This document shows, one piece after another, positions 1 through 24,545 of a stretch of 36,939 nt of DNA. Below the pieces are notes generated by a model, which saw only the letters and a program-made list of their open reading frames with translations, had not been told where the DNA came from and made no database searches. Position 1 is the stretch's first letter, and the number at the start of each line of letters is the position of its first letter. The position numbers were made by a program, and so were the translations under genes. Source of the DNA: a virus; the IMG/VR virus record IMGVR_UViG_3300020193_000059, positions 1-36,939 of that record. One strand, given 5' to 3'.

Positions 1-225
1 GGAAAACTTTTCGACGTGATTCAGAAGTTTCCAGAAGTGAGAGAAGTTCCGCACTTCGACGTTGTTAAACTTTGGCCCTCTCACCGTGAGTCGCCACGGC
101 GAATCGAGGCGGGTGAAGTTGACGGTATAGGAAAACGCCCCTTTGCGAGCGGTTGCAGAAGTGAGAGAGAAAGGGTCAACTGCGAATCCGTATTCGGTGA
201 GTTGATTCGCTTCGAGTTCGTTCAT
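1..225 (-). CDS. Small phage accessory protein, copy 1 of 3 (3' end cut by window edge)
   Basis: The minus-strand frame is open from an ATG at 225 to the left edge, giving 75 residues with no stop. It is a diverged copy of the genes at 542-772 and 1528-1758. All share a start like MN(E/D)LEANQL, a central SLTSATARKG, and NFSHFWKLLNH near the end. A second ATG lies 12 nt upstream at 237, but the -10 box at 244-249 would place the transcription start near 237, so 225 is the likelier start. I do not recognise the family. Three retained copies with amino acid divergence suggest that the coding sequence is under selection. Confidence 0.7.
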   Translation of the reverse strand, partial: MNELEANQLTEYGFAVDPFSLTSATARKGAFSYTVNFTRLDSPWRLTVRGPKFNNVEVRNFSHFWKLLNHVEKFS

Positions 226-243
226 ATTTGATTTCATGTCTAA

Positions 244-271
244 AGTGTAGCAGGTTTTCCGCGTATTACAA
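244..271 (-). promoter_or_regulatory. Sigma70-type promoter for gene 1-225
   Basis: On the minus strand, TTGTAA (266-271) and TACACT (244-249) are separated by 16 nt, and a TG just before the -10 makes an extended -10. The same arrangement recurs before the two paralogous genes. Confidence 0.55.
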
Positions 272-324
272 GAAAAATCTTCAACTGAATTTCCCTGATA
301 GTCAAGGACTTACAAAAGGGGCGG
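271..324. repeat. Intergenic repeat, copy 1
   Basis: This is the first of five near-identical intergenic copies. It begins AGAAAAATCTTCAACTGAAT, continues through a TGATAGTCAAGG core and ends in a G-rich run. Copies lie upstream of the promoters of small minus-strand genes, and the -35 box can overlap the copy's edge. Role unknown; it could be a recombination or protein-binding site. Confidence 0.75.
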
Positions 325-357: not shown

Positions 358-528
358 TTAGGCGGCTTCGTAAGCTCTCAGATGATACGACGCAAAGTTC
401 TCATTGGATTTTGCGGTCGCAATGAAACGGTTGGCATCGTCTTTGCTTTGGAATTGAATTGTGCGTCCATCGGTTAGAGTGACGACGTGAAGGACGATGA
501 TTTTGATTGTTTTATCGAGTTTGGTCAT
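358..528 (-). CDS. Small hypothetical protein (56 aa)
   Basis: ATG at 528 to TAA at 358-360. The product is a small protein with a strand-like first half (KIIVLHVVTLTDGRTIQF) and a helical second half (DDANRFIATAKS). It lies 13 nt downstream of the gene at 542-772 on the same strand and is probably co-transcribed with it. The pattern of a beta strand followed by 'F.SKDDANRFI.' resembles small phage proteins of unknown function; I do not recognise a named family. No clear ribosome binding site is visible. Confidence 0.6.
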   Translation of the reverse strand: MTKLDKTIKIIVLHVVTLTDGRTIQFQSKDDANRFIATAKSNENFASYHLRAYEAA

Positions 529-541
529 GTGCGGGATAAGT

Positions 542-772
542 TTAGAGAATGGAAAACTTTTCCATGTGATTCAGAAGTTTCCAGAAGTGAGAGAAGTTCC
601 ACACTTCAACGTTGTGAAACTTTGAACCTCTCCTCGTGAATCGCCACGGCAATTCGAGGCCGGTATAGTTCACAACGTAAGTGAACTGCCCTTTGCGAGC
701 GGTTGCGGAAGTCAGAGAGTAAGCGATGTCGAATCCACGTTCAGCGAGTTGGTTGGCTTCAAGGTCATTCAT
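542..772 (-). CDS. Small phage accessory protein, copy 2 of 3
   Basis: 76 residues, starting MNDLEANQLAERGF and ending NHMEKFSIL. It is closely similar to the copy at 1528-1758 and more distantly to the partial copy at 1-225. It contains a predicted beta-rich centre (QFTYVVNYTGLELPWRF) and an aromatic-rich tail (VEVWNFSHFWKLL). The promoter is 16 nt upstream with a very short leader. The function is unknown. It forms the 3' part of a direct repeat of about 0.7 kb (541-1253 against 1527-2242). Confidence 0.75.
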   Translation of the reverse strand: MNDLEANQLAERGFDIAYSLTSATARKGQFTYVVNYTGLELPWRFTRRGSKFHNVEVWNFSHFWKLLNHMEKFSIL

Positions 773-787
773 GTTTGATTTCTCTAA

Positions 788-815
788 AGTGTAGCAGATT
801 TTGCGCGCATTACAA
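788..815 (-). promoter_or_regulatory. Sigma70-type promoter for gene 542-772
   Basis: TTGTAA (810-815), 16 nt spacer, TACACT (788-793) on the minus strand, with TGC before the -10. The predicted start leaves a leader of roughly 9 nt. Confidence 0.55.
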
Positions 816-900
816 GAAAAATCTTCAACTGAATTTCCCTGATAGTCAAGGACTTACAAAAGGGCGGGGGGCACGTTTGTAACTACTTGATAGTAAAGGG
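815..900. repeat. Intergenic repeat, copy 2 (long form)
   Basis: The common core is followed by a G-run and a block ending ACTACTTGATAGTAAAGGGG. The long form is shared with copies 4 and 5 and leads into the 3' end of the MINQ-type genes. Confidence 0.75.
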
Positions 901-901
901 G

Positions 902-1177
902 TTACTCATCCCCACAGAAACCCTCATCGTTGTCGCCGAAGTAGCCATAATCCTCATCCGTGCCGTAACCCGCAGAAGCGAGCGTCATTGCGTCAGCCTC
1001 GACATCGGAAAGTCCATCGTCGTTGAACGGGACATCGCGGTTATCGCAAGCAGCCTCATCGCAAGGCGCGGGTTCATCGTTGAATTCGCTCATGTCGTCA
1101 CCTGTCTCTCCATAGCCCATTTGAGCGAGCGGAGTGATTTCGGATTCAGAAGGTAGGAACTCGAATTGATTTATCAT
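902..1177 (-). CDS. Highly acidic MINQ-type protein, copy A
   Basis: 91 residues, of which about 26 are Asp or Glu against a single Arg and no Lys, so the protein is strongly negative. It has four cysteines and glycine/tyrosine pairs (GYGT, YGYF). It is identical to the protein at 1891-2166. Its first 11 residues (MINQFEFLPSE) and last 8 residues are shared with the otherwise unrelated protein at 2288-2629. An extended -10 promoter lies directly upstream, which supports this strand over the overlapping plus-strand frame. Small acidic phage proteins are sometimes DNA mimics (Ocr and ArdA are examples), but that is only a suggestion here. Confidence 0.7.
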   Translation of the reverse strand: MINQFEFLPSESEITPLAQMGYGETGDDMSEFNDEPAPCDEAACDNRDVPFNDDGLSDVEADAMTLASAGYGTDEDYGYFGDNDEGFCGDE

Positions 1178-1183
1178 GCAGAA

Positions 1184-1211
1184 AGTCTAGCATAAACCGT
1201 CTATGTGTCCA
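1184..1211 (-). promoter_or_regulatory. Sigma70-type promoter of acidic gene copy A
   Basis: TGGACA (1206-1211), 16 nt spacer, TAGACT (1184-1189) with TGC upstream of the -10 on the minus strand. It is repeated exactly before copy B and almost exactly before the gene at 2288-2629. Confidence 0.6.
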
Positions 1212-1264
1212 GAAAAATCTTCAACTGAATTTCCCTGATAGTCAAGCACTTACGCAGGGGGCGG
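1211..1264. repeat. Intergenic repeat, copy 3
   Basis: The core matches the other copies up to TGATAGTCAAG, then diverges (GCACTTACGCAGGGGG). Confidence 0.7.
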
Positions 1265-1338
1265 GCTGGCAAGAAGCGTACCAAGTGTCTCTGAAAAAAC
1301 GCTTGGCGCAACTTTTTTTCTTGAAAAGCTGGCCTTGC

Positions 1339-1494
1339 TTACAATCCGCAAGCGGCAAGAAATTTTGCTTTATTGAAGCGGGGATTTAGATTAGCAAATT
1401 TGCCCGCATTGAATTCGGCCATCTTGCGTCGTTCATCGAGATTCTCGATGCGTTTGATAATTTCAGCGACTAGGATGAAATGTTTGCGTGTCAT
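1339..1494 (-). CDS. Conserved small phage protein, MTRKHF type (51 aa)
   Basis: ATG at 1494 to TAA at 1339-1341. The protein begins MTRKHFILVAEIIKRI, has a central helix with ERRKMAEFNAGKFA, and ends NPRFNKAKFLAACGL. Small proteins with this layout (MTRK.F..IA..I at the start and NPRFD...F..AC near the end) are, to my knowledge, very widespread in phage genomes with no assigned function. It lies downstream of the gene at 1528-1758. Its 30-nt leader closely matches the leader of the gene at 2686-3018. Confidence 0.8.
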   Translation of the reverse strand: MTRKHFILVAEIIKRIENLDERRKMAEFNAGKFANLNPRFNKAKFLAACGL

Positions 1495-1527
1495 AGGTTT
1501 TTTTATTTGATTTGTCGTGCTGATATT

Positions 1528-1758
1528 TTAGAGAATGGAAAACTTTTCCATATGGTTAAGGAGCTTCCAGAAGTGAGAGAAGTTCCACACTTCAACGTGG
1601 TGAAACTTTGAACCTCTCCTAGTGAATCGCCACGGCAATTCAAGCCCTGTGTAGTTCACGACATAGGAAAACTGCCCTTTGCGAGCGGTTGCGGAAGTGA
1701 GAGAGCAAGCAACGTCGAATCCACGTTCAGCGAGTTGGTTGGCTTCAAGGTCATTCAT
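1528..1758 (-). CDS. Small phage accessory protein, copy 3 of 3
   Basis: 76 residues starting MNDLEANQLAERGF and ending MEKFSIL, nearly the same as 542-772. An in-frame ATG 12 nt upstream (1770) would add MKSN. I prefer 1758 because it aligns with the other two copies and because the -10 box at 1777-1782 would put the transcription start at about 1770. The function is unknown. This gene and the acidic gene at 1891-2166 form the second copy of the 0.7-kb direct repeat. Confidence 0.75.
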   Translation of the reverse strand: MNDLEANQLAERGFDVACSLTSATARKGQFSYVVNYTGLELPWRFTRRGSKFHHVEVWNFSHFWKLLNHMEKFSIL

Positions 1759-1776
1759 GTTTGATTTCATGTCTAA

Positions 1777-1804
1777 AGTGTAGCAGATTTTGCGCGCATT
1801 ACCA
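1777..1804 (-). promoter_or_regulatory. Sigma70-type promoter for gene 1528-1758
   Basis: TGGTAA (1799-1804), 16 nt spacer, TACACT (1777-1782) on the minus strand. The -35 differs by one base from the paralogous promoter at 788-815. Confidence 0.5.
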
Positions 1805-1889
1805 GAAAAATCTTCAACTGAATTTCCCTGATAGTCAAGGACTTACAAAAGGGCGGGGGGCACGTTTGTAACTACTTGATAGTAAAGGG
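1804..1889. repeat. Intergenic repeat, copy 4 (long form)
   Basis: Matches copy 2 over essentially its full length at an offset of 989 nt. Confidence 0.75.
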
Positions 1890-1890
1890 G

Positions 1891-2166
1891 TTACTCATCC
1901 CCACAGAAACCCTCATCGTTGTCGCCGAAGTAGCCATAATCCTCATCCGTGCCGTAACCCGCAGAAGCGAGCGTCATTGCGTCAGCCTCGACATCGGAAA
2001 GTCCATCGTCGTTGAACGGGACATCGCGGTTATCGCAAGCAGCCTCATCGCAAGGCGCGGGTTCATCGTTGAATTCGCTCATGTCGTCACCTGTCTCTCC
2101 ATAGCCCATTTGAGCGAGCGGAGTGATTTCGGATTCAGAAGGTAGGAACTCGAATTGATTTATCAT
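1891..2166 (-). CDS. Highly acidic MINQ-type protein, copy B
   Basis: The product is identical over all 91 residues to the protein at 902-1177, and the flanking DNA is also nearly identical, so the duplication is recent or kept uniform by recombination. It is a soluble-looking, strongly acidic protein with no membrane segment or signal peptide. The same promoter (TGGACA at 2195-2200 and TAGACT at 2173-2178) lies upstream. No function is known; see copy A for the DNA-mimic possibility. Confidence 0.7.
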   Translation of the reverse strand: MINQFEFLPSESEITPLAQMGYGETGDDMSEFNDEPAPCDEAACDNRDVPFNDDGLSDVEADAMTLASAGYGTDEDYGYFGDNDEGFCGDE

Positions 2167-2172
2167 GCAGAA

Positions 2173-2200
2173 AGTCTAGCATAAACCGTCTATGTGTCCA
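2173..2200 (-). promoter_or_regulatory. Sigma70-type promoter of acidic gene copy B
   Basis: TGGACA (2195-2200), 16 nt spacer, TAGACT (2173-2178) on the minus strand, an exact repeat of the promoter at 1184-1211. Confidence 0.6.
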
Positions 2201-2286
2201 GAAAAATCTTCAACTGAATTTCCCTGATAGTCAAGGGCTTACAAAAGGGCGGGGGGCCACGTTTGTAACTACTTGATAGTAAAGGG
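2200..2286. repeat. Intergenic repeat, copy 5 (long form)
   Basis: The core and the G-run block match copies 2 and 4 with a one-base insertion in the G-run. It leads into the 3' end of the gene at 2288-2629. Confidence 0.75.
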
Positions 2287-2287
2287 G

Positions 2288-2629
2288 TTACTCATCCCTA
2301 CAGAAACCCTCATCGCATTTGTAGTCCGTGCCTGTAAGTGTAAACGAACCGTCCTTTTGTTTTACGATAAGAGCATCGAATCCATCCTTTGCCCAATCAT
2401 GGTATATATTTTCTGCCGTTGATTCCTCAAATTCTAGAACCTTTGGATTTCTGACCTCAATGGAAAACTTTGCGACTACACCGCCCTTCTTATCAGCATA
2501 ACTCTGTGCGAGCTTCTTTGAAGAAGCAAACCAGTCGGATTTGACGGTCAATTCACCTTTTGTAAGGCCTCGATAAAGCGTTAGCTTTCCGATAAATTCA
2601 GAAGGTAGGAACTCGGATTGATTTATCAT
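2288..2629 (-). CDS. MINQ-type protein with ADP-ribosyltransferase-like middle
   Basis: 113 residues. The first 11 residues (MINQSEFLPSE) and last residues (DEGFCRDE) match the acidic proteins at 902-1177 and 1891-2166, but the centre is different. It has LTLYRGLTKGEL (an R that could be the NAD-contacting Arg), then SDWFASSKKLAQSYADKKGG, then a strand pair (VVAKFSIEVRNPKVLEF), then GFDALIV. This order (YRG, aromatic-x-S with a following A..YA helix, V.N P, G.DA.I) resembles small ART-fold ADP-ribosyltransferase domains seen in phage and polyvalent proteins. The catalytic Glu is not clear to me. If active, it could modify a host protein early in infection; that is inference. Confidence 0.65.
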   Translation of the reverse strand: MINQSEFLPSEFIGKLTLYRGLTKGELTVKSDWFASSKKLAQSYADKKGGVVAKFSIEVRNPKVLEFEESTAENIYHDWAKDGFDALIVKQKDGSFTLTGTDYKCDEGFCRDE

Positions 2630-2635
2630 GCAGAA

Positions 2636-2663
2636 AGTCTAGCACAAACCGTCTATGTGTCCA
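2636..2663 (-). promoter_or_regulatory. Sigma70-type promoter for gene 2288-2629
   Basis: TGGACA (2658-2663), 16 nt spacer, TAGACT (2636-2641) on the minus strand. A truncated piece of the intergenic repeat (AGAAAAATCTTC) follows at 2663-2674. Confidence 0.6.
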
Positions 2664-2685
2664 GAAAAATCTTCTTCGCTTGGCT

Positions 2686-3018
2686 TTAGCGCAGAGCGGG
2701 TTCGATTATCAAGGCCATGACGAACCATAGGACAATCATTAACGCGAGTGTTGCGAAAAGGAATTCATGATTCGGCATGATTGCAAGTTTAAAATCGGGA
2801 CGATGAACGCAACGGTCTAAACGAAAGCTACGAAACTTTTCATCCCGATTTCGGACGGGAAGGGTAAAGTATCTATTCCCTTCCGCACTACGCAGGATGG
2901 CTTTTTCAGGATTGCCGATGACTTGGTAACTTTGCAAAGCTCCATTGCCATTTTCTGACTTTTCGGGAATGTAAAGCACGTTGTAAGTTGGGGTGAAGTA
3001 TTTCGTTAGGTTTTTCAT
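2686..3018 (-). CDS. Small protein with C-terminal membrane anchor
   Basis: 110 residues from ATG 3018. An ATG at 3030 would add MKNL, but the 3018 start aligns with the start of the gene at 1339-1494 through their shared 30-nt leader. The N-terminal part is soluble, with a segment EKAILRSAEGNRYFTLPVR followed by KFRSFRLDRC, which recalls the small SH3-like end of WYL-type proteins. The C-terminal segment FLFATLALMIVLWFVMALII is a clear membrane helix ending three residues before the arginine tail. The role is unknown; it may be a host-takeover or membrane-associated accessory protein. Confidence 0.6.
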   Translation of the reverse strand: MKNLTKYFTPTYNVLYIPEKSENGNGALQSYQVIGNPEKAILRSAEGNRYFTLPVRNRDEKFRSFRLDRCVHRPDFKLAIMPNHEFLFATLALMIVLWFVMALIIEPALR

Positions 3019-3048
3019 TAGGTTTTTCATTTCGTTTGTCGTGCTTAC

Positions 3049-3183: not shown

Positions 3184-3402
3184 TTAGCTCCTCCACCATT
3201 GAGTTTCCACATCGTCAGCAAGGACTTGCTGAAAATCCACATTCCCGCCCGAAAGGTCACGGAAAAGCTCACGGGTTACTCCGTTGATGGTCTTTTGTCC
3301 TGTAAGGCGTTGAATTAATTGCGCGTCGTCTTTGTCAACGACGTATTCAAGACGCTTGCCATAGACTTCACGGGCGACGAATTTGATGATTTTCTTTTTC
3401 AT
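3184..3402 (-). CDS. Conserved small phage protein, FVAREVYG type
   Basis: 72 residues beginning MKKKIIKFVAREVYGKRLEY, followed by a helix (DDAQLIQRLTG) and QKTINGVTRELFRDL. The pattern 'K.v.REVYG..l.Y......A..i..LTG.KT' is, from memory, a recurrent small phage protein of unknown function, usually 50-70 residues. It is the most upstream gene of the minus-strand cluster and has the best promoter of the region. It is probably an early-expressed protein. Confidence 0.75.
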   Translation of the reverse strand: MKKKIIKFVAREVYGKRLEYVVDKDDAQLIQRLTGQKTINGVTRELFRDLSGGNVDFQQVLADDVETQWWRS

Positions 3403-3440: not shown

Positions 3441-3713
3441 CATTTTTTTTACATGGGGGGTATGCCTATTTTTGAAAAAATTTCAAAAAGCAAGAGTAAA
3501 AAAACGTGTCAGGGGGTTGTGTTCAGTCTCCCGGTTTAATTTTAAACAAAAAACCAAAAAAAACAACAAAAAACCAAAAAACAACAAAAAAAACAACAAC
3601 AACTAAACAATAGTTCATTTACTTCCTTGTCTTTCCTAATACTCAAAAAAAAAGAATAGATACATAGTACATAGTATGTAAATTTATATTTATGTACCCT
3701 TTTTATTAATAAA

Positions 3714-3721
3714 GTGTAATA
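3714..3721 (+). promoter_or_regulatory. GTGTAATA motif (putative late promoter) before 3729
   Basis: GTGTAATA ends 7 nt before the ATG at 3729. No Shine-Dalgarno sequence lies between, so a transcript from this site would be leaderless or nearly so. Confidence 0.55.
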
Positions 3722-3728
3722 TTAAATA

Positions 3729-4409
3729 ATGAAAGCTCCGATTTGGGCATTTTTCATACTTTTAGGTGGTATTTTGATGGGATGTTCAACGATAAAAAGT
3801 CCATCAAATCAAATTAGGGTTGCTCCACCAAAACCCTTGACAACCCAAAGACAAGAGACATTTGATATAAAAATCCTTCGGGAATTTAATCAATCAGAAC
3901 GTGAAGGTGGTATTTTGATAGGATGTTCAACGATAAAAAGTCCATCAAATCAAATTAGGGTTGCTCCACCAAAACCCTTGACAACCCAAAGACAAGAGAC
4001 ATTTGATATAAAAATCCTTCGGGAATTTAATCAATCAGAACGTGAATTAGCTATTCAGGCTTTAAAAATGGTGTCTTCTATTGACGGTTCTCAAATATAT
4101 CCCTATTTACCACAACAGCTTTATTGGGCTGATATGCCATTATTTTATGGATTAACAATTACTCAAGACGCCATTCCCTTCTATACAAACAAAATAATTT
4201 TATTAGATTTTAGACAGACTCGCCCAAAAGAAACTAATGACGTGCATCAAATGCTATTTTTTGGAGCAATCCTGTCGCACGAACTTCATCATTATTTTCA
4301 TAATTCAATTGACCCAGACACAAAAAACAAAACAGATGCCGAAATATATAAAAGAACCCAACAAAATCCCCAACTCCTTAATAATCTTTTAAGCAATTCA
4401 AAAAAATAA
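3729..4409 (+). CDS. Putative lipoprotein zinc metallopeptidase with internal duplication
   Basis: 226 residues. A hydrophobic N-terminus leads to a lipobox-like LMGC with Cys19, so export and lipid anchoring are likely. Residues 13-59 are repeated in tandem as 60-106 with one substitution (M to I), so the second copy also carries an IGC motif. Without the insertion the protein would be about 179 residues. HELHH (184-188) fits the HExxH zinc motif of gluzincin or other zincin-like peptidases. A third metal ligand is not obvious. A phage envelope protease could act in lysis or on host surface proteins; that is inference. The gene starts a plus-strand run with 4440 and 4691. Confidence 0.65.
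   Translation: MKAPIWAFFILLGGILMGCSTIKSPSNQIRVAPPKPLTTQRQETFDIKILREFNQSEREGGILIGCSTIKSPSNQIRVAPPKPLTTQRQETFDIKILREFNQSERELAIQALKMVSSIDGSQIYPYLPQQLYWADMPLFYGLTITQDAIPFYTNKIILLDFRQTRPKETNDVHQMLFFGAILSHELHHYFHNSIDPDTKNKTDAEIYKRTQQNPQLLNNLLSNSKK
3765..4046 (+). repeat. 141-bp near-perfect tandem duplication
   Basis: The copies are 3765-3905 and 3906-4046, differing at one base (G or A in the GAT.GG triplet region). 141 nt is 47 codons, so the reading frame is preserved and the lipobox region of the lipoprotein is duplicated. Confidence 0.95.
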
Positions 4410-4425
4410 CTTACAGAACTTTAAC

Positions 4426-4433
4426 GTGTAATA
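4426..4433 (+). promoter_or_regulatory. GTGTAATA motif before 4440
   Basis: The motif ends 6 nt before the ATG at 4440, with no visible ribosome binding site. Confidence 0.55.
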
Positions 4434-4439
4434 TAAATT

Positions 4440-4688
4440 ATGGACGAACCCAAAAAATACACAAGAGAAGAGCTTGAAGAGGCTAAAAATCAAGCCATTA
4501 AATCTGAAAAGTTGGACTTAGTATTGAGAGATGTATCAGAAATCAAAAAACTGCTCGAAACCAACTACGTCAAGCAGGATGAATTTAAACCAGTTAAATC
4601 TATAGTTTATGGAATGGTTGCGACTATTCTTTTGGCTGTATTAAGTGGTTTGGTTTTGTTAATAATAAAAGCTCCTGTTATCCCATAA
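4440..4688 (+). CDS. Holin-like small membrane protein
   Basis: 82 residues. A charged helical N-terminus (EELEEAKNQAIKSEKLDLVLRDVSEIKKLLE) resembles a short coiled coil. It is followed by one membrane helix (VYGMVATILLAVLSGLVLLII) and a short tail. The layout of coiled coil then C-terminal helix is the layout of XhlA-type phage lysis proteins and related holin-like proteins. It lies between a lipoprotein protease and a polytopic membrane protein, which fits an envelope or lysis module. No endolysin was found in this window, so the assignment remains tentative. Confidence 0.6.
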   Translation: MDEPKKYTREELEEAKNQAIKSEKLDLVLRDVSEIKKLLETNYVKQDEFKPVKSIVYGMVATILLAVLSGLVLLIIKAPVIP

Positions 4689-4690
4689 TA

Positions 4691-5365
4691 ATGAAAAATA
4701 AATTGATAAAATTTTTCACCCCTGGGTCTTTAGTTCTGGCCGAAGAATTTTGTAAAATGTTAATTCCTTTTGTTATTTTGCTTGTATCGTTAATAACCCT
4801 TTATGGATGGATTACAAAACAAGAAATCTACACAAAATGGTTGGATTCTGGTGAAAGCATGAAGATATTTACGGCGGTTTCTTTTATTTTAAGTTCTATT
4901 ATTTTGATTCGCTCTAGCGAGCTACAACACAAGAAAAACAAATTTTGCGATATTATTGTTTCTATATGTTCAAATTGGTTGCTATTTATAGTTGGTGGAT
5001 TGTCTATTTTTTCTTTTTTTGATTTTCCTTCTAATTTAGAAAATATTGTTGCCCCGCAATTACCTTCGCTTTTTGCTTTGGTTGGGATATTTCTTATTGC
5101 ATTAAGTGGATTGATTATTTGTTTTAATACAGATAAAAAATATAAAAGACTGCAATTTATTGGTTCTTTAATTTATTCTCTTGGAATGTGTGGATTTATT
5201 GGGTATCTTTTTGATTTACCTTATCTTTATGGACATTTTAATAAATTTTTTCATGGTATGGCATTTCATACTTGTTTGTTGTTTATTTTATATGCAATAG
5301 GACTTAGATTAAATTGTTACCCGAAATCTATCGAAGCAAAAGCTAAAGAAATTATTATAAAATAA
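4691..5365 (+). CDS. Polytopic membrane protein, sensor-domain-like
   Basis: 224 residues with about six predicted membrane segments (for example MLIPFVILLVSLITLYGW, IFTAVSFILSSIILI, LPSLFALVGIFLIALSGLII and MAFHTCLLFILYAIGL). The last part, GYLFDLPYLYG followed by a segment starting MAFHTCLLF, resembles the N-terminal membrane domain of some bacterial sensor histidine kinases, but no kinase domain follows. It starts 2 nt after the upstream stop and so is translated with it. It may be a stolen host membrane-sensor domain or a lysis/superinfection protein. I do not assign a function. Confidence 0.6.
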   Translation: MKNKLIKFFTPGSLVLAEEFCKMLIPFVILLVSLITLYGWITKQEIYTKWLDSGESMKIFTAVSFILSSIILIRSSELQHKKNKFCDIIVSICSNWLLFIVGGLSIFSFFDFPSNLENIVAPQLPSLFALVGIFLIALSGLIICFNTDKKYKRLQFIGSLIYSLGMCGFIGYLFDLPYLYGHFNKFFHGMAFHTCLLFILYAIGLRLNCYPKSIEAKAKEIIIK

Positions 5366-5366
5366 A

Positions 5367-6023
5367 ATGATAAATTTCGACGACATTAAGACTAATTCCC
5401 CATATTTTAAGTATTTATTGGCGACTTTAAATAAAAATACCCAATCGCGGGATAATATTTTTTTGGAGACATTAAATCTATTTAATGAAAAACCAATTAG
5501 AATTTTGGAAATTGGGTCGATGACTGCTATAGATGGTCGCTGGGGGAATGGGAATAGCACAATGTTTTGGTTAATGTATTTAGCCAAATATGGAGGGGAG
5601 TTAATTACTACTAATATTAACCAACAACATTTGGATGAGTGCAAGAAAGTAGTGGAAACCTTCGAAACTCCTGTAAATGTTCATTACGTATTAAGAAGGG
5701 GCGAGGAAATTTTGGAAAAAGATAATTCTTTCGATTTGGTATATTTAGATGGAGCGAACGCAGCCGAAGAAATGTTAAATCAATATAGAATGTGCCATGA
5801 TGACTCATATGTTCTTTGCGACGATTTTACAACTAAAGGAACAATGGTTAGAAATCTAGGGTTACATCATAAACTATATGTTTTTGCGGGGGGACATCAA
5901 ATGGCTTTATTTCATAAGAAGAACATACAAACTAATGTTGTAAAAAATATTCTACGTAATCCTACGGATAGAGAGATGTCTTGGGAAGCATTTTTGGCAA
6001 CACACCGAATCGCGGCCAAATAA
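5367..6023 (+). CDS. Class I SAM-dependent methyltransferase-like protein
   Basis: 218 residues. RILEIGS (around residues 44-50) fits motif I of Rossmann-fold methyltransferases. It is followed by a strand-helix (LITTNINQQHLDECKKVVE), a further strand (VNVHYVLRRGEEIL) and FDLVYLDGANAAEEM with DDSYVLCDDF, which fits motifs IV and V of the Methyltransf_24 type. The usual GxGxG is loosened by an insertion after EIGS, so cofactor binding is not certain. The substrate is unknown; a small molecule or sugar is as likely as DNA. It starts 1 nt after the upstream stop. Confidence 0.6.
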   Translation: MINFDDIKTNSPYFKYLLATLNKNTQSRDNIFLETLNLFNEKPIRILEIGSMTAIDGRWGNGNSTMFWLMYLAKYGGELITTNINQQHLDECKKVVETFETPVNVHYVLRRGEEILEKDNSFDLVYLDGANAAEEMLNQYRMCHDDSYVLCDDFTTKGTMVRNLGLHHKLYVFAGGHQMALFHKKNIQTNVVKNILRNPTDREMSWEAFLATHRIAAK

Positions 6024-6102
6024 GGGCTTGCGAGCGCGAAATAATGGGAGAAAAAAGTAATAAGTCAATTATAAAATTTTTTGGTTTTTAAATAGATGAT
6101 AC

Positions 6103-6110
6103 GTGTAATA
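6103..6110 (+). promoter_or_regulatory. GTGTAATA motif upstream of phoH
   Basis: The motif lies 69 nt before the PhoH start and 25 nt before the ATG of a 15-codon frame (6136-6183). Confidence 0.5.
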
Positions 6111-6135
6111 TACGTTGTGAAGCAATCATAATTCG

Positions 6136-6183
6136 ATGGGAGCCTATTATATGATGGGCTCCTTTTGTATTTATAACATATGA
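6136..6183 (+). CDS. Possible 15-residue leader peptide ahead of phoH
   Basis: ATG at 6136 opens a 15-codon frame (MGAYYMMGSFCIYNI) whose TGA overlaps the PhoH ATG as ATGA. A hairpin lies inside the frame (6139-6144 pairing with 6157-6162). The position after a GTGTAATA motif and the exact stop-start overlap suggest translational coupling or attenuation. A frame this short can arise by chance, so confidence is low. Confidence 0.3.
   Translation: MGAYYMMGSFCIYNI
6139..6168 (+). terminator. Hairpin with T-rich tail before phoH (attenuator-like)
   Basis: GGAGCC (6139-6144) pairs with GGCTCC (6157-6162) over a 12-nt loop, followed by TTTTGT. It lies between the promoter motif and phoH, so it could act as an attenuator. 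The stem has only 6 pairs, so it is weak. Confidence 0.4.
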
Positions 6184-6911
6184 AACAACAAAAAGACACA
6201 TCTCCTCATGTTTATCAAAGAGATAAAATTAAAAATCAACTTTCAATTAAGGAACTCCAATGGTCAGAAAAACAAAAAGAATTTATTAAAATTATTTCAA
6301 ATAAAGAAACCAAACTTGTATTTCTTGGTGGCCCGGCGGGGACAAGTAAAACGTTAATGGCTGTATATGCAAGCCTTAAACTTCTTTCAGATAAAAAAGT
6401 TTCAGACATTATTTATTTGAGGTCTGCTGTAGAAAGTTCAGATGCCAAAATAGGATTTTTACCGGGTGATGCGTCTCAGAAATTGCATTTTTATAATTTG
6501 CCTTTTTATGAAAAATTAGAAGAATTGTTATCTCGTCCAGAAATTGATAAATTAGAAAAAGAAAAAAGAATTTCCGCTTTTCCCATTAATTATGCGAGAG
6601 GATTAAATTGGAGCGCGAAGGCCATTATTCTTGATGAGGCCCAAAACTCTACATACAAAGAAATTATTACAATTCTTACAAGGCTTGGTCATTTTTCCAA
6701 ATGTTTTGTATTAGCAGACCCAATGCAAACGGACTTAACAAATGGAAAGGTTGGAGGTTTTGAAAGATTACAAGGGCTTTTTAACGATGAACTAAGTAAA
6801 GAAATGGGAATATATTCTTTTAATTTTAACGAAGAGGATATTAAGCGTTCTGAATTAGTCAAATATCTTGTTAAAAAAATAAATGACCCCGCATCGAAAC
6901 AACTTCATTAG
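6180..6911 (+). CDS. phoH: PhoH-like ATPase
   Basis: 243 residues with a P-loop NTPase core of the PhoH family. Walker A is GGPAGTSKT (50-58), VSDIIYLRSAVE follows, then FLPGDASQKL, and Walker B is AIILDEAQN (148-156). VLADPMQTDL matches the sensor region usual in PhoH proteins. PhoH proteins are common in phages and bind ATP; some are RNA helicase-like, and the phage role is not settled. The gene stands alone on the plus strand. Its 3' end overlaps the convergent gene 6871-7338 by 41 nt. Confidence 0.9.
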   Translation: MKQQKDTSPHVYQRDKIKNQLSIKELQWSEKQKEFIKIISNKETKLVFLGGPAGTSKTLMAVYASLKLLSDKKVSDIIYLRSAVESSDAKIGFLPGDASQKLHFYNLPFYEKLEELLSRPEIDKLEKEKRISAFPINYARGLNWSAKAIILDEAQNSTYKEIITILTRLGHFSKCFVLADPMQTDLTNGKVGGFERLQGLFNDELSKEMGIYSFNFNEEDIKRSELVKYLVKKINDPASKQLH

Positions 6912-7338
6912 CTTTTGATAAAAATAAGTCTTTTGGAATAATAGACGTCTTTTCTCCACGCAAAAACATAACATAGTCTACTTCTTCAAATGGTTTGATG
7001 AAACTTTGTAGATTATCTGGAGTAGGTTTGGCGACTAAAAAACTTATCAAAACACAATTACCATTTGGGATATAAGTAGAATTTTTTGCGCGTTTATATT
7101 CTTCAATCACATCGTTAGGGTTATCAATGCTAATTCTGTTATACAATAAACACATCGAATCAGTTACTAAAAATGCTCCAGAATATGTATCTATCGATTT
7201 TTTAAAAAAGTTTAATTTTTCTTCAAGTTTTTCGTGAGTAACGATAAAACGGCTTTGTGGATAATTTTCCAAAAGAAGATACTGGCACTTTACGAAAAAA
7301 TCAATTTTTTCTTGAATATTTAGTTCCTTAAATAGCAT
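6871..7338 (-). CDS. Hypothetical protein at the end of the glycosyltransferase operon
   Basis: 155 residues. The start ATG at 7338 lies 2 nt after the stop of the GT2 gene, so the two are translationally linked. The protein has alternating helices and strands (FFVKCQYLLLENYPQSRFIVTHEKLEEKLNFFKK, then GAFLVTDSMCLLYNRI, then NCVLISFLVAKP and VDYVMFLRGEK). The last strands and the Arg-Gly near the end vaguely recall a small acyltransferase or phage structural fold, but I recognise no family. The convergent overlap with phoH suggests a compact insertion of this operon. Confidence 0.7.
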   Translation of the reverse strand: MLFKELNIQEKIDFFVKCQYLLLENYPQSRFIVTHEKLEEKLNFFKKSIDTYSGAFLVTDSMCLLYNRISIDNPNDVIEEYKRAKNSTYIPNGNCVLISFLVAKPTPDNLQSFIKPFEEVDYVMFLRGEKTSIIPKDLFLSKANEVVSMRGHLFF

Positions 7339-7340
7339 AA

Positions 7341-8456
7341 TTATTTTAATTTATCTAGGGCAAATTGTAAATTTTGTTGGATTCTGTTTTTGTATGAGTC
7401 TGGTAATTGAGGGCATTTTAATATACGAAGACAAGCATCACGAGATTGTCCATAATATCCCGCCCAATATGCTGCAATAGAATATTCGTCTAAAAGCCCA
7501 TAATCATAAATCCATTTTTCTATGAATAAACCATCGTGGACTTTTGGTAAAGACAGGGCGTGTTTGCCGAGAATATATCCTTGATGATTTCTTCCATTCA
7601 GTCTGCATAATCTAATTGCTCCATGTAGCGATTCTATTCGTTCTGGACATATTTCATAAGCCCTAAGATAAGATTGGATTATGTCATCTAATGGATGTTT
7701 AAGATTTTCTTTAAGTTTGGCTATTTGATATGCGGCCCAGAATCTTTCTTGTTCCCAAAACTTGAGATTTAATCTCTGTTCATAATATTTAATAGCTTCT
7801 CCATCTTTTCTCGCATCCCTTAAAGACTGAGCCAAGTAAAAACAATATCTTGAAATTAAAAACTCGTCCTTTTCTGTAAGTAGAGCATTTCGCAATAACT
7901 CAGCGTCTTTTTGAAATTTTATTCCAGATTGATTTCTGGCGCTATCTTGCATTGGCATATTAAAGAATCCAAGAGCTTTGCCTCGAGAACTAATTGGTTC
8001 TTGGCAGTCTAAAAATTCATGCACAATTCCGCGATAAATAAATGGTTTTGTGTTGCTGCATATTTGTGGTCTTGAATATTCTGTGGCTCCATAATTTGTA
8101 GTAATATTGTATATATCATCTTTAAGGTTTTGCTTAAATTTAATAGGGTCAAATCCGTCCTCGAAAATTAATACTTCATCGGCATCTATCATTAATACGT
8201 AATCTATTTCTTTTAGTTTTCTGATTTCTGTCAAAACAGAAGTTCTATTTGTTGCAAAATCTTTCCATTCTTCCAAAAGTATTTGCCCCTGTATTTTATT
8301 TTCATGCATCCATTTATAGATAACCGAGAGTGTATTATCAGAAGAGCCAGTATCTATTATCAATATATAATCAATTAAATTTTTGACACTATTTAGGCAA
8401 CGCGTGATAACGTGCGCCTCATTTTTAACAATCATTCCTAGTGCTATTTTTTTCAT
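7341..8456 (-). CDS. Family 2 glycosyltransferase with helical repeat tail
   Basis: 371 residues from the ATG at 8456, whose ATGA overlaps the stop of the upstream GT9 gene. A longer frame from 8513 exists, but it would overlap that gene by 61 nt and adds an atypical N-terminus. MKKIALGMIVKNEAHVITRC and LIIDTGSSDNT (32-42) are typical of GT2 enzymes, and DAD (91-93, in VLMIDADEVL) is the metal/nucleotide-sugar motif. Residues after about 180 are helical, with DAEL..ALL, FLISRYCFYLAQSLRD and similar segments resembling TPR repeats. It likely transfers a sugar to phage or host glycans, or to a virion protein. Confidence 0.85.
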   Translation of the reverse strand: MKKIALGMIVKNEAHVITRCLNSVKNLIDYILIIDTGSSDNTLSVIYKWMHENKIQGQILLEEWKDFATNRTSVLTEIRKLKEIDYVLMIDADEVLIFEDGFDPIKFKQNLKDDIYNITTNYGATEYSRPQICSNTKPFIYRGIVHEFLDCQEPISSRGKALGFFNMPMQDSARNQSGIKFQKDAELLRNALLTEKDEFLISRYCFYLAQSLRDARKDGEAIKYYEQRLNLKFWEQERFWAAYQIAKLKENLKHPLDDIIQSYLRAYEICPERIESLHGAIRLCRLNGRNHQGYILGKHALSLPKVHDGLFIEKWIYDYGLLDEYSIAAYWAGYYGQSRDACLRILKCPQLPDSYKNRIQQNLQFALDKLK

Positions 8457-9361
8457 TTCAATTTTTGAATTAGGGCATCGTAAACTTGTTCGACGCTGAT
8501 TTTGGCCATACATTCATGTTTTGGAGCTTCATATGTTTGATTTGGTGGATTTTCACAGATTCCATTTGAAGCTTTAGAAATCCAAGGGTTTTCTTTAAAG
8601 CATGGCTGACATTCAAGATTTAAACTTATGTTGATGTTATGTGGATAGCCAGATGCAGAAGCCTGCGTCGAACCAAAAAGAATAATTGATTTTGTTTTTT
8701 GATTTTTATTTAGCCAAAATATATTAGAAGTATGATTAAAAACTGAATCTACGCCCAAATGCGCTTGCGCCCATGCTTGGGCGGCTAAATTTGTTTCAAA
8801 TGAATCTCCCAAAAAATACCCATCAATATTTTCTATTTTTTTGTCTTTTGCTCCTCCTATTTGATATATTTCTATGTCACTTCTTTCTTTTTTAATTTTA
8901 TCAGCGAGCAGTTGCCATCCCCACCATTCTTTGTAAATTGACCAGCCTGTGTTGGTCTGAATTGTGATATAATATGGGCAGTTTTTGTTTTTAATTTTAT
9001 TGGGGATTTGTGGCGTGGTTAATTCTAAATCATTAAATGAAAAATCTAATTTAAGTTCATCAAAAAAATATTCTACTAGGTGTTTCCTCATCGGTTTTGA
9101 TGGATAACCCTCTTGTATTGGGTATCCAATTAATCTTATCCAATTTTGGTAGTCTGAAGCTTGAAATTTTGACAAATCATAAACTTCTTTTGTTATTTCG
9201 TTGTTTATAAGGAATTCTCTAAGAATATCTACATAAGAAATGTGACAAAAATAATGAATATCAGAGTATTGTTGCTTGAGTTTTTTGCAACAGTTTAATG
9301 TCATTATTATATCACCCAATGCGCCGGGGCGATATAATGCAATTGTGTTTTTATTGTTCAA
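8453..9361 (-). CDS. Family 9 (heptosyltransferase-like) glycosyltransferase
   Basis: 302 residues. The start is a TTG at 9361 overlapping the end of the small gene 9351-9521. The start of the protein (IALYRPGALGDIIMTL, GD at 16-17) is the usual N-terminal signature of GT9 enzymes. The second half has YYITIQTNTGWSIYKEWWGW, IEIYQIGGAKD, then GVDSVFNHTSN, and a Cys-containing end (CQPCFKE, CENPPN, HECM) as in many GT9 relatives. GT9 enzymes act on LPS core heptoses or related sugars. In a phage it may change host surface glycans and so block superinfection; that is inference. Confidence 0.85.
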   Translation of the reverse strand: MNNKNTIALYRPGALGDIIMTLNCCKKLKQQYSDIHYFCHISYVDILREFLINNEITKEVYDLSKFQASDYQNWIRLIGYPIQEGYPSKPMRKHLVEYFFDELKLDFSFNDLELTTPQIPNKIKNKNCPYYITIQTNTGWSIYKEWWGWQLLADKIKKERSDIEIYQIGGAKDKKIENIDGYFLGDSFETNLAAQAWAQAHLGVDSVFNHTSNIFWLNKNQKTKSIILFGSTQASASGYPHNINISLNLECQPCFKENPWISKASNGICENPPNQTYEAPKHECMAKISVEQVYDALIQKLK

Positions 9362-9521
9362 TTGGTTGTGGTGGCGTACGTTCTATTTCTTTTAATAATT
9401 GATAAGCAAGCTGATTTATTTTAATAAATCCATGCGATATATGGTTACTATCATGTTTACAGAACTCTATAGATAATCGAAGAATTTCTTTTAGATTTTT
9501 GATTTCTCTTGATTCGTTCAT
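9351..9521 (-). CDS. Small hypothetical protein leading the GT operon (56 aa)
   Basis: ATG at 9519-9521 to TAA at 9351-9353. The product is a mostly helical, charged protein (MNESREIKNLKEILRLSIEF..., ending ERTPPQPIEQ). Its stop lies inside the start of the GT9 gene, an overlap typical of coupled translation, which supports it being real. I do not recognise the family. Confidence 0.6.
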   Translation of the reverse strand: MNESREIKNLKEILRLSIEFCKHDSNHISHGFIKINQLAYQLLKEIERTPPQPIEQ

Positions 9522-9544
9522 GTTTATAATATGTTATTTAATGA

Positions 9545-9560
9545 GTTTTATTTATAAAAC
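9545..9560. promoter_or_regulatory. Palindrome in divergent intergenic region
   Basis: GTTTTAT and ATAAAAC, separated by TT, form a perfect 7-bp inverted repeat. It sits between the leftward GT operon (start 9521) and the rightward gene at 9587. It is a candidate operator, but AT-rich palindromes also occur by chance. Confidence 0.35.
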
Positions 9561-9586
9561 TTACATGGATTTTATTATTATGAGAT

Positions 9587-10027
9587 ATGCCAGCTAATTA
9601 TTGTCACAATTGCGGAAAGAAAGCTCTAAGTATTTCATCAAAATTTTGCTCTGAATGCGGAACAAATCTTGCCTCCCTGTCTTCTTCTCCTCCACCTCTT
9701 AAAAAATTGCCCTCTTATAAATCTAATAAAACTTTTGTTCCGAAAATATCGGCAATAAATAAAGATGGCGACAAATATGAGTCAATTGACCCAGATGACG
9801 GACATAGCGTTGATGAATTTTCAGTTGAAATGGATGAATTACAATTTGAAATGGACGAAAGACAATCCAATAAGGAAACACTTAAACAAATGCTGGCGTC
9901 TCCATGTCCCCCACAGTCATACCCAACAGAGCCCCAAGAAATACCTTATGATGAAAAAACATTTAGAGCCGAATTTATGAAAGAAGCCGGAACTACTAAA
10001 ATTTCAAAGGAAATAAATGGAGACTAA
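9587..10027 (+). CDS. Zinc-ribbon protein
   Basis: 146 residues. The N-terminus has two CxxC pairs (C6, C9, C21, C24; CHNCGKK and CSECGTN), which is a classic small zinc ribbon. A proline/serine linker and an acidic helical region (MDELQFEMDERQSNKETLKQML) follow. Its end overlaps the sigma-like gene by 11 nt, so the two are probably co-translated and may work together in transcription. No catalytic motif is visible. Confidence 0.75.
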   Translation: MPANYCHNCGKKALSISSKFCSECGTNLASLSSSPPPLKKLPSYKSNKTFVPKISAINKDGDKYESIDPDDGHSVDEFSVEMDELQFEMDERQSNKETLKQMLASPCPPQSYPTEPQEIPYDEKTFRAEFMKEAGTTKISKEINGD

Positions 10028-10697
10028 GCCAAAATTCGATGACTATATAGAAATTATTGACCAAGAAATTATTAAACGGAAGAATAAGTGGGCGTTGACA
10101 TCCCTTCAGTGGTTGGATTTTGAAGATGTTGCTCAAATTATTAGAATACATATATTCAAAAAATGGGAACAATATGATTCTTCCAAACCCATCCAGCCTT
10201 GGTTAAATAGAATTATTACCAACCAAATTAGAAATATAATTCGTAATTCTTATAGTAATTTTGTTAGACCATGTTTAAGATGTGCGGCCGCGCTTCCAGA
10301 TGACGGATGCTCCATTTATATTGAACAATGCAGTAGATGTCCACTTTATCAAACATGGGAGAAAAAGAAAAAAAATGCCTACAATATAAAAATTACTGTT
10401 CCAATGACCAGCCATGAACATGAGGTTAAAGAAAATTGGGAAGAGGGTATTGATATAGAAGCTTCGGCACAAAGACTTCATAAGCGCATGAAAGTCATAC
10501 TCAAGCCGTTAGAATGGAAAGTTTATGAAGCTTTATTTATAAATAATGAAGATGAAAAAAAAGTAGCAGAACGTCTAGGTTACATTACAAATGAAAAAAA
10601 TAGACACCCCGGCTATAAACAAATCAAAAACATAAGAAAAATAATCATTGATAAAGCAAAAAAAATCATATCAGATGACCAAGTAGATATTATTTAA
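10017..10697 (+). CDS. Phage sigma-70-like factor with cysteine cluster
   Basis: 226 residues. Residues 33-78 (LDFEDVAQIIRIHIFKKWEQ..., PWLNRIITNQIRNIIRN) fit sigma region 2, which opens the -10 element. A Cys cluster follows (C86, C89, C98, C105, C108), suggesting bound zinc. The C-terminus (LKPLEWKVYEALFINNEDEKKVAERLG then YKQIKNIRKIIIDKAKKII) fits a region 4-like helix-turn-helix. The layout resembles late sigma factors such as T4 gp55. It lies just upstream of packaging genes and is the natural candidate to recognise the GTGTAATA motif. Confidence 0.75.
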   Translation: METKPKFDDYIEIIDQEIIKRKNKWALTSLQWLDFEDVAQIIRIHIFKKWEQYDSSKPIQPWLNRIITNQIRNIIRNSYSNFVRPCLRCAAALPDDGCSIYIEQCSRCPLYQTWEKKKKNAYNIKITVPMTSHEHEVKENWEEGIDIEASAQRLHKRMKVILKPLEWKVYEALFINNEDEKKVAERLGYITNEKNRHPGYKQIKNIRKIIIDKAKKIISDDQVDII

Positions 10698-10698
10698 T

Positions 10699-11787
10699 AT
10701 GGACGAAGAGCTTCAATTATCAGAAGAACAAAAGGTAAAGCTATTAACCTCTTGGAATAATTCTGCCTCGCCTCCAGCCCTCAAAGATTTGACAATAGAA
10801 ATATTTGGACACGAACTTGACGGCCGCTCAAAAGAAGGCAGAGCTATTAAAGCCTTTCTTGCAACGCATAGTTTAAAACCAAGACCAGCGCAAGAACACA
10901 TTCCTAAAGAAAAATTAACTCTTAGCCTTGAGCAAATGGAATATATATCTAAGAATTGTAATACAATGACCTCCTTGGATATGGCAAGGATATTATTCAA
11001 AAATACCTTATTAACAAATCTAAATCAAGAAACCAGAGTAGTCAATGAATATGCTAAAACCTTAGATAAAAAATTGACCTATGGAGATGCGGAAGATGTG
11101 CCTTCTGGAGATTGGAGCCCACCAAAAAGTTTAATTACTGCAATAGCTAGAGTCAATAAATATTTACATCACGGCATTGATAAAGATAAAATTACAGCAA
11201 AACAGAGAAAAGATTTAGAATCTTTAATTGGGTATCTTCATACGTTTCGATTTAGGCATCAGATTAACAATTTTGAAACTGATACGGATAGACAACTTTT
11301 TGAATCTACATTTATTCGTTATACTTATGATAAATCTGATTTGACTCAGGAGGAGGTTGACCAATTTATTCTTTTAGCTAATGAGATAGTTATGGCATCT
11401 ACTATTCAAAGAAGGTCTGAAAGATTACAGGTGCTACTTGATGAATCTTCACAATCCGGCGAAGATAATGTGCGAATTGCAATGTCTCTAGTGGAAGCGA
11501 TAGGAAAGGCCCAAATAGAATATAACGCCTGCGTTAAAAGACAACAAGACCTAACAAACAGTTTAAAAGAAAAAAGAAGTGATAGATTGGGCAAACAATT
11601 AAAAGATAATGCAAGTATTTTGAATCTTGTCCAGTTGTGGAAACTTGAAGAAACTCGTAATAAAATGATTAAACTTGCCCAATTGCAAAAACTAGCCGTT
11701 AAAGAAGAAATTGATAGGCTTATGAGTATGGAGGAGTTAAAATCTAAAATTATGGGCCTATCAACAAACGAAGCTCTAAATGGATAA
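10699..11787 (+). CDS. Putative small terminase or packaging-linked DNA-binding protein
   Basis: 362 residues, starting 1 nt after the sigma gene's stop. The N-terminal part (LTIEIFGHELDGRSKEGRAIKAFLATHSL) reads like a helix-turn-helix. The rest is almost all helix, including a long coiled-coil-like stretch near residues 250-345 (DNVRIAMSLVEAIGKAQIEYNACVKRQQ). It lies two genes before TerL, where small terminase subunits usually are. It is longer than most small terminases, and no sequence signature fixes the call, so the role is inferred from position. Confidence 0.5.
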   Translation: MDEELQLSEEQKVKLLTSWNNSASPPALKDLTIEIFGHELDGRSKEGRAIKAFLATHSLKPRPAQEHIPKEKLTLSLEQMEYISKNCNTMTSLDMARILFKNTLLTNLNQETRVVNEYAKTLDKKLTYGDAEDVPSGDWSPPKSLITAIARVNKYLHHGIDKDKITAKQRKDLESLIGYLHTFRFRHQINNFETDTDRQLFESTFIRYTYDKSDLTQEEVDQFILLANEIVMASTIQRRSERLQVLLDESSQSGEDNVRIAMSLVEAIGKAQIEYNACVKRQQDLTNSLKEKRSDRLGKQLKDNASILNLVQLWKLEETRNKMIKLAQLQKLAVKEEIDRLMSMEELKSKIMGLSTNEALNG

Positions 11788-12724
11788 TATATCAAATGAA
11801 AAAATTTGCCAAATTTGTAAACAAGAATTTACAGATAAGGTATTATTGCATAAGCACATAAAGACTCACGGACATAGAATAGTTTCTTATTATCAGTCTT
11901 GTTTTCCAAAATATGATTTATACGATAACAAAATTATTGCCTTTAAAAGTGAAGAACAATACTTTAATAGCGATTTTAATAACAAAAATCACTTACGCTT
12001 TTGGCTTAGAAAACAAAATAAGGAAACGGCACAAAAATACTGCAAAAATTTATTGGAAAGAAGAATCAAGCTTAAAAAGCTGAATTTTGCGCCGTGTCAA
12101 GTCGAACTTAGGTCACTCTTAATTCCTTCTATCAATTATTATGATGAATTATTTGGGGATTATTATTTATTTTGTAAAAATGAATTAAATATTTCATCAA
12201 AATATGAACGAATAGAAATGTCCAATATTTTAAATCCAAACGATGTGATTCAAATAGACACCAGAGAACAAACCCCATTAATTTTCAAAAATTTACAATC
12301 CGTTAAGCTTGCTTTAAAATTTGGAGACTATACCCTAAATGATAAAGATGTTTGTCAGAATAGTTTTATAGAAAGAAAATCATTGGCAGATTTCTATGGA
12401 ACAATGAGCGGAGGAATTGAAAGGTTTAAAAGAGAATTGTTAAAAGCGAAAGATGCCAAAGCGGAAATTTTAGTCTTAATAGAGAGCGATTTTAATAATG
12501 TAGCGCGATTTAAATATCTGAGAGCGGCATACTCAAAAGTTAGGGCGTCTCCAGATTTTGTATTGCATAATATGAGAGAAATTATTAATCAGTTTCCTTT
12601 TGTTCAGTTTTTGTTTGTAGATGGGAGAGAAGAAGCGGCTAGAATTGTGGAAATCATATTAACTTGTAAAGGTTTATGGAAAAAGGCCGATTTACAGCTA
12701 TTATATGATACAGATAAGTTATAA
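11780..12724 (+). CDS. C2H2 zinc finger-ERCC4 nuclease fusion
   Basis: 314 residues, overlapping the upstream gene by 8 nt. The N-terminus holds a C2H2 finger (C10, C13, H26, H30). After a helical spacer, residues 157-290 form an XPF/MUS81 (ERCC4) nuclease domain. DTREQTP starts at D160, GDYTL at G182-D183, and ERKSLAD at 198-204 gives the GD...ERKxxxD active site. These enzymes cut branched or flapped DNA. Its position directly before TerL suggests removal of branches from replicated concatemers before packaging, the role T4 endonuclease VII plays by another fold. That is inference. Confidence 0.85.
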   Translation: MDNISNEKICQICKQEFTDKVLLHKHIKTHGHRIVSYYQSCFPKYDLYDNKIIAFKSEEQYFNSDFNNKNHLRFWLRKQNKETAQKYCKNLLERRIKLKKLNFAPCQVELRSLLIPSINYYDELFGDYYLFCKNELNISSKYERIEMSNILNPNDVIQIDTREQTPLIFKNLQSVKLALKFGDYTLNDKDVCQNSFIERKSLADFYGTMSGGIERFKRELLKAKDAKAEILVLIESDFNNVARFKYLRAAYSKVRASPDFVLHNMREIINQFPFVQFLFVDGREEAARIVEIILTCKGLWKKADLQLLYDTDKL

Positions 12725-12726
12725 AT

Positions 12727-24544: not shown

Positions 24545-24545
24545 T

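Follow-up and report, generated by a model that had tools for sequence, protein, structure and literature searches.

The small-gene region at the left of a viral contig is best explained, with a probability of about two in three, by recombination of cassettes between repeated intergenic elements together with one in-frame replacement of the middle of a gene. The window, that is, the whole stretch of DNA analysed, is the IMG/VR virus record IMGVR_UViG_3300020193_000059 (36,939 bases, positions 1 to 36,939), and comes from a large tailed phage with a recombination-driven small-gene region at the left of this stretch. A cassette would be composed of one small gene preceded by an intergenic element and a promoter-like sequence, with about 6 bases separating the -10 box from the start codon. 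Whole cassettes would be duplicated, moved and evened out by recombination between the repeated elements, and the tandem units formed by an acidic gene and an 80-aa gene would be the product of such element-to-element events. Once, the joints would have fallen inside the coding sequence, replacing in frame an acidic-type middle by an ART-PolyVal-like segment, or the reverse, and the resulting chimera would begin with the 11 residues and finish with the 8 residues that are typical of this locus. Direct observations are the tandem repeat, the blocks shared between genes, the tract of identity with its borders in the element, and a gene turnover restricted to the array; recombination between repeated flanks is well supported, with a single chimera in one metagenome contig. 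We infer that the exchange went through homologous recombination, that the promoter-like sequences are functional and that the chimera is expressed.

The chimeric gene and the tandem units

The features of the region are the following:

1..240, minus strand: third copy of the 80-aa gene, truncated by the contig start (83% nucleotide identity)
269..320, minus strand: copy of the intergenic element
358..528, minus strand: 56-aa gene, whose orthologue in the closest relative (G009, see below) adjoins the 80-aa gene
541..1253, minus strand: tandem repeat unit 2, without differences from unit 1 between one element and the next
542..772, minus strand: 80-aa gene copy 2 (95% amino acid identity to copy 1)
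813..864, minus strand: copy of the intergenic element
902..1177, minus strand: second copy of the acidic gene, without differences from copy 1
1209..1253, minus strand: copy of the intergenic element
1339..1494, minus strand: 51-aa gene between the two tandem units, with an orthologue in G009 in a different order
1527..2242, minus strand: tandem repeat unit 1 (716 bp), with an acidic and an 80-aa gene
1528..1770, minus strand: 80-aa gene copy 1, which follows acidic copy 1 and has an orthologue in G009
1802..1853, minus strand: copy of the intergenic element
1891..2166, minus strand: acidic gene copy 1 (91 aa), with a stretch (residues 24-83) that resembles acidic proteins of other phages and includes the tail motif ASAGYGTDEDYG
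2198..2315, minus strand: 3' constant block (last 8 codons, stop and intergenic element)
2200..2249, minus strand: copy of the intergenic element, with a CTTGACTATCAGGGAAATTCAGTTGAAGATTTTTCT core
2288..2629, minus strand: chimeric ART-like gene (113 aa), with acidic-gene ends and an ART-PolyVal-like middle
2316..2595, minus strand: unique middle of the ART-like gene
2596..2674, minus strand: constant block at the 5' end of the ART-like gene, with promoter-like TGGACA-16-TAGACT, the ATG and codons 1-11
2686..3030, minus strand: 114-aa gene of the array, with no relative in G009
3184..3402, minus strand: 72-aa gene opening the array, with orthologues in G009, L108 and L109

The three open reading frames at 902-1177, 1891-2166 and 2288-2629 were confirmed on the minus strand. 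The first-pass annotation had described them as sharing their promoter region, an 11-residue start, an 8-residue end and the downstream DNA around unrelated middles, a description borne out by two DNA blocks, both 97.5% identical. The 5' block (2674-2596 against 2211-2133, 79 bp, E 4e-34) spans the -35/-10 region, the ATG and codons 1-11, encoding MINQ[F/S]EFLPSE, and the 3' block (2315-2198 against 1918-1802, 118 columns, E 1e-52) spans the final 8 codons, which encode DEGFC[G/R]DE, together with the stop codon and intergenic DNA. Start and end peptides differ by one residue each between the ART-like and the acidic proteins, and the frame is kept at both joints, with the two middles (280 bp in the ART-like gene, 214 bp in the acidic one) giving no significant protein match to each other. 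Upstream of the ART-like gene, DNA is shared only from GAAGATTTTTCT onward, the upper part of the element not being included. In the window and the relatives' DNA examined, the MINQxEFLPSE start and the DEGFCxDE end occur only in these three genes, and both middles have relatives elsewhere carrying different ends, which indicates that the constant ends belong to the locus and not to either middle. Since the acidic genes in the 716-bp tandem repeat are copies of each other with 100% identity, only a single independent chimera can be counted; the three genes do share their ends, as first noted, but the acidic pair counts as one data point.

The middle of the chimera matches positions 30-100 of the 140 of the ART-PolyVal ADP-ribosyltransferase profile (PF18760, E 5.6e-5), with a score of 24.4 bits against a gathering value of 31.2, and so below the Pfam cut-off. 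Profile positions 101-140 are unmatched, leaving the chimera without the C-terminal strand and the acidic motif at the C-terminal end of ART-PolyVal domains, which is catalytic. Unlike the chimera, two viral proteins found elsewhere (L230, above the cut-off, and L231, below it) continue their ART-PolyVal matches into an EYxxVFDPxxIK-type end, where the chimera shows KDGSFTLTGTDYK followed by the constant tail DEGFCRDE. The simplest reading of these alignments would be an ART fragment fused to locus-specific ends. The resulting protein is probably inactive, and its effector activity seems doubtful because the domain is sub-threshold and devoid of its usual C-terminal part. The proposed standing system for swapping effectors under one expression unit is therefore the weaker part of the interpretation, and the searches turned up no second phage that carries these ends around a different middle. 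The flank DNA pattern gave no match in viral_contigs, and homologues of the ART-like protein were found neither there nor among phages or plasmids. Its sole genome match, L098 (Aquimarina), was set aside as a chance match in a long membrane-transporter-like reading frame, and a single-sequence AlphaFold model of the protein reached a pLDDT of 43 with designed proteins as best matches, so these fold matches were discarded.

Units 1 and 2 of the tandem repeat show zero differences over 2235-1804 (432 bp), whereas their remainder, mostly the 80-aa gene, differs at 23 of 274 columns (Fisher p = 1e-7); many of these changes are silent, as the 80-aa proteins are still 95% identical. Both borders of the identical tract fall inside the repeated intergenic promoter element. 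Because the acidic tract is identical and its 80-aa neighbour has diverged, the acidic cassette was probably copied after the duplication of the unit, the copied tract starting and ending in the element. The third copy of the 80-aa gene is cut at the contig start, and thus the contig begins inside a repeat.

The intergenic element and the comparison with relatives

By large-terminase comparison, the closest relative is IMGVR_UViG_3300023208_000004 (G009; 164,097 bp), with 87% identity in this protein. The terminase relatives of the window are environmental viral contigs, and known phages match only at about 26% identity (Bacillus phages), along 62% of its length. All tested genes of the window between 3.7 and 35.9 kb are collinear with G009 at 52-92% amino acid identity, except 5367-6023, which had no match there in the gene-by-gene comparison. 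To the left of 3.7 kb, the two genomes have four genes in common (the 72-, 80-, 51- and 56-aa genes), in a changed order. When the array genes were compared with G009, the acidic, ART-like and 114-aa genes had no orthologue, and G009 carries different small genes where the window has these three. Gene turnover relative to G009 is therefore restricted to the small-gene array. This restriction and the element-to-element identity tract agree with the earlier suggestion of cassette exchange between constant flanks, of which the part that concerns gene middles has one chimera in one genome behind it.

Several other features of the two genomes stand out. Within ORF 3729-4409, a near-perfect 141-bp tandem duplication (3764-4045) doubles the N-terminal part of the protein, and the G009 orthologue is without it. 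The adjacent genes 18994-21684 and 21695-23062 encode paralogous proteins that cross-match at about 32% identity, and both are conserved in G009 and in other relatives. Amid phage structural genes, positions 23153-27322 hold DUF1501, PSCyt1/PSCyt2 (DUF1549) and PSD1 (DUF1553) genes, which are typical of Planctomycetota and their relatives; they occupy the same position in G009 (92, 78 and 76% amino acid identity, with PSCyt2 and PSD1 as separate reading frames in both genomes) and are thus phage-borne. In G009 itself, a GP88 (PF17338) gene at 148541-149110 (L095) and a second stretch at 161119-160550 (L097) share 68% nucleotide identity, and reading frames of similar sequence occur in L108 and L109.

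The window contains five copies of the intergenic element. In G009 it recurs between genes at several places, clustered at 144-164 kb and with about 75-88% identity; the G009 copies are not homogenised (77-88% identical to each other), a point against the proposed explanation. A relaxed palindrome search with the core TTGANNNTCAA or -G found 39 sites in G009, of which 18 fall at 140-150 kb, and G009 was the sole match in a scan of IMG/VR with the element pattern. In L108, a further related phage, positions 3700-13700 contain about 14 copies of an unrelated intergenic inverted-repeat element (AGAGTTGCA, about 25 bases, TGCAACTCT), which lies in the same position as that of the window, directly upstream of the promoter-like boxes of small genes. 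The recurrence of this architecture with an unrelated sequence indicates that the element sequence is lineage-specific, as expected of operator-like sites.

In the window, the repeated element adjoins promoter-like boxes upstream of different genes, before the -35 box. A promoter scan of the whole region found 6 sites against 4.7 expected, not above chance, and the predicted promoters are assigned from their position and from similar boxes recurring ahead of many genes. In most of the small genes examined, 5-10 bases separate the end of the -10-like box from the ATG, a distance so short that it suggests leaderless or near-leaderless messages. Terminator-like sites numbered 2 against 4.2 expected in the regional scan, with none in the element copies.

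Two known systems resemble this locus. Mobile regulatory cassettes of T4-type phages, the so called PeSLs (Arbiol et al. 2010 and Comeau et al. 2014, as cited in PMC4503421), are described as promoter-bearing repeats between small early genes, dense at sites of gene turnover and proposed to promote shuffling by recombination. As in that description, gene turnover in the window is concentrated at repeats (four shared genes in the array, collinearity elsewhere), and recombination joints lie at repeats, in one case, the acidic identity tract. Unlike PeSLs, the window repeats have no detected stem-loop terminator, the phage is not recognisably T4-like by its terminase, and joints fall inside coding sequences too. 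The SAS/ESAS repeats of Cluster K mycobacteriophages are lineage-specific sequences that precede small non-structural genes belonging to various families. An SAS is an asymmetric repeat of 13 bp located at the ribosome-binding site, with 3-7 bp between it and the start codon, and ESAS are extended copies with an inverted repeat thought to bind a protein (PMC3203893). Many copies of a lineage-specific repeat upstream of dissimilar small genes are also seen here, and the L108 inverted-repeat element, like ESAS, may bind a protein, whereas the window element lies farther from the gene, some 35-90 bp upstream of the start codon and before the -35 box. The locus thus resembles PeSL shuffling and, in its layout, SAS, and it lacks some of the defining features of each.

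Alternative explanations

The constant ends might be functional tags, selected for localisation, partner binding or stability during the exchange of middles, in which case the locus would be a true effector swap system. This is compatible with both joints being in frame and with the one-residue difference at each end. However, identity at the DNA level extends through the non-coding flanks (45 bp upstream and about 90 bp downstream), which fits a recent copy without selection on the peptide, and none of the other proteins examined, relatives of either middle among them, carries these ends. We hold such tags to be unlikely; most likely, the ends were kept for the promoter, start, stop and downstream signals they contain, and not for a function of the end peptides.

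A further concern is assembly from short reads, which is difficult across repeats such as the tract of 432 identical bases: reads joined through repeats of 79-432 bp could have created the chimera or the tandem copies as artefacts. The perfect identity of the 432-bp tract, a contig start within a repeat copy and the lack of a second contig with the joint in viral_contigs, from which near-identical records may be omitted, all go in this direction. On the other hand, the shared blocks differ (F/S, G/R and further bases), the 80-aa copies differ at 8% of sites and are thus distinguishable, and the ART-like reading frame is open and in frame through both joints, which makes an artefact quite improbable. 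Programmed diversification, in which a diversity-generating retroelement or a site-specific cassette system would replace the middles, is very improbable indeed. Its likeness to the locus, constant flanks around a variable core, is superficial: the middles are different families instead of point-mutated copies of a template, as the variable repeat of a diversity-generating retroelement would be, the flanks consist of normal coding and promoter sequence and contain no attC-like sites, and no integrase or reverse transcriptase was found among the subset of window proteins scanned with Pfam. Cassette recombination between the repeated elements, with one replaced middle, is the explanation retained.

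A tail motif on small phage proteins

Residues 24-83 of the acidic protein align with proteins of five other loci (L007, L011, L026, L028 and L130; GDDMSEF...DVEADADTLASAGYGTDEDYG), whose ends differ. An outward search from the acidic protein reached 63 loci, and a degenerate DNA pattern for AG[YFW]GTDEDYG reached at least 119. The tail motif ASAG[YFW]GTDEDYG is found in at least 156 distinct viral proteins (L007-L229), near the C-terminus and behind dissimilar heads, and was not found in G009; reversed-pattern controls gave no match in the records tested. Among the matches listed, these proteins have a median length of 83 residues and a median net charge of -19, and the median distance from motif to C-terminus is 16 residues (11-20 in 133 of 156). 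The consensus of the tail reads D/S-M/D-D-G-D-x-x-S-A-L/M-A-S-A-G-[YFW]-G-T-D-E-D-Y-G-Y-[YF]-G-[DE]-[DE], and conservation extends outside the ten searched residues (S at 96% and A at 85% immediately before, L or M at 97%, and mostly YYG[DE][DE] after). Synonymous codons vary freely in the motif, and it is therefore the peptide that is conserved, not recently copied DNA.

The N-terminal parts of the tagged proteins form 66 similarity clusters (E 1e-3) among the matches listed, many of them low-complexity singletons that may be diverged rather than unrelated. A head of the CEDYPxCGH type is tailless in G009 and L108 and tailed in L174, L182 and L192, and the L048 head resembles tailless proteins of Providencia phage PS3 and Escherichia phage SYGMH1. 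Most of the 51 records tested, the majority chosen for having the tail, carry one copy, and G000, G036 and G038 carry two. None of the tagged proteins scanned was named by Pfam or NCBIfam. The C-terminal half of PHROG 36991 (phrog_36991), a function-unannotated family, matches the tail of the acidic protein and those of unrelated tagged proteins, its match to the acidic protein being limited to the tail part. When the tail peptide alone or the tagged proteins L058 and L009 served as tblastn queries against phages, there was no match, which low-complexity masking may explain, and no description of the sequence or of this kind of tail was found in the open-access literature. Tentatively, and at somewhat less than even odds, the tail could be an exchangeable C-terminal module on many unrelated small phage proteins, reaching one conserved partner in the infected cell.

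The small-gene region is of a known kind, comparable to the PeSL-type shuffling of T4 phages, and what is unusual in it are the in-frame joints inside genes; the tail motif is the more novel outcome. If it is true that one conserved partner is bound, the tail would offer a direct handle on many unannotated phage genes. The locus, for its part, displays three stages in the origin of small genes: duplication, cassette copying between repeats and in-frame replacement of a gene middle.
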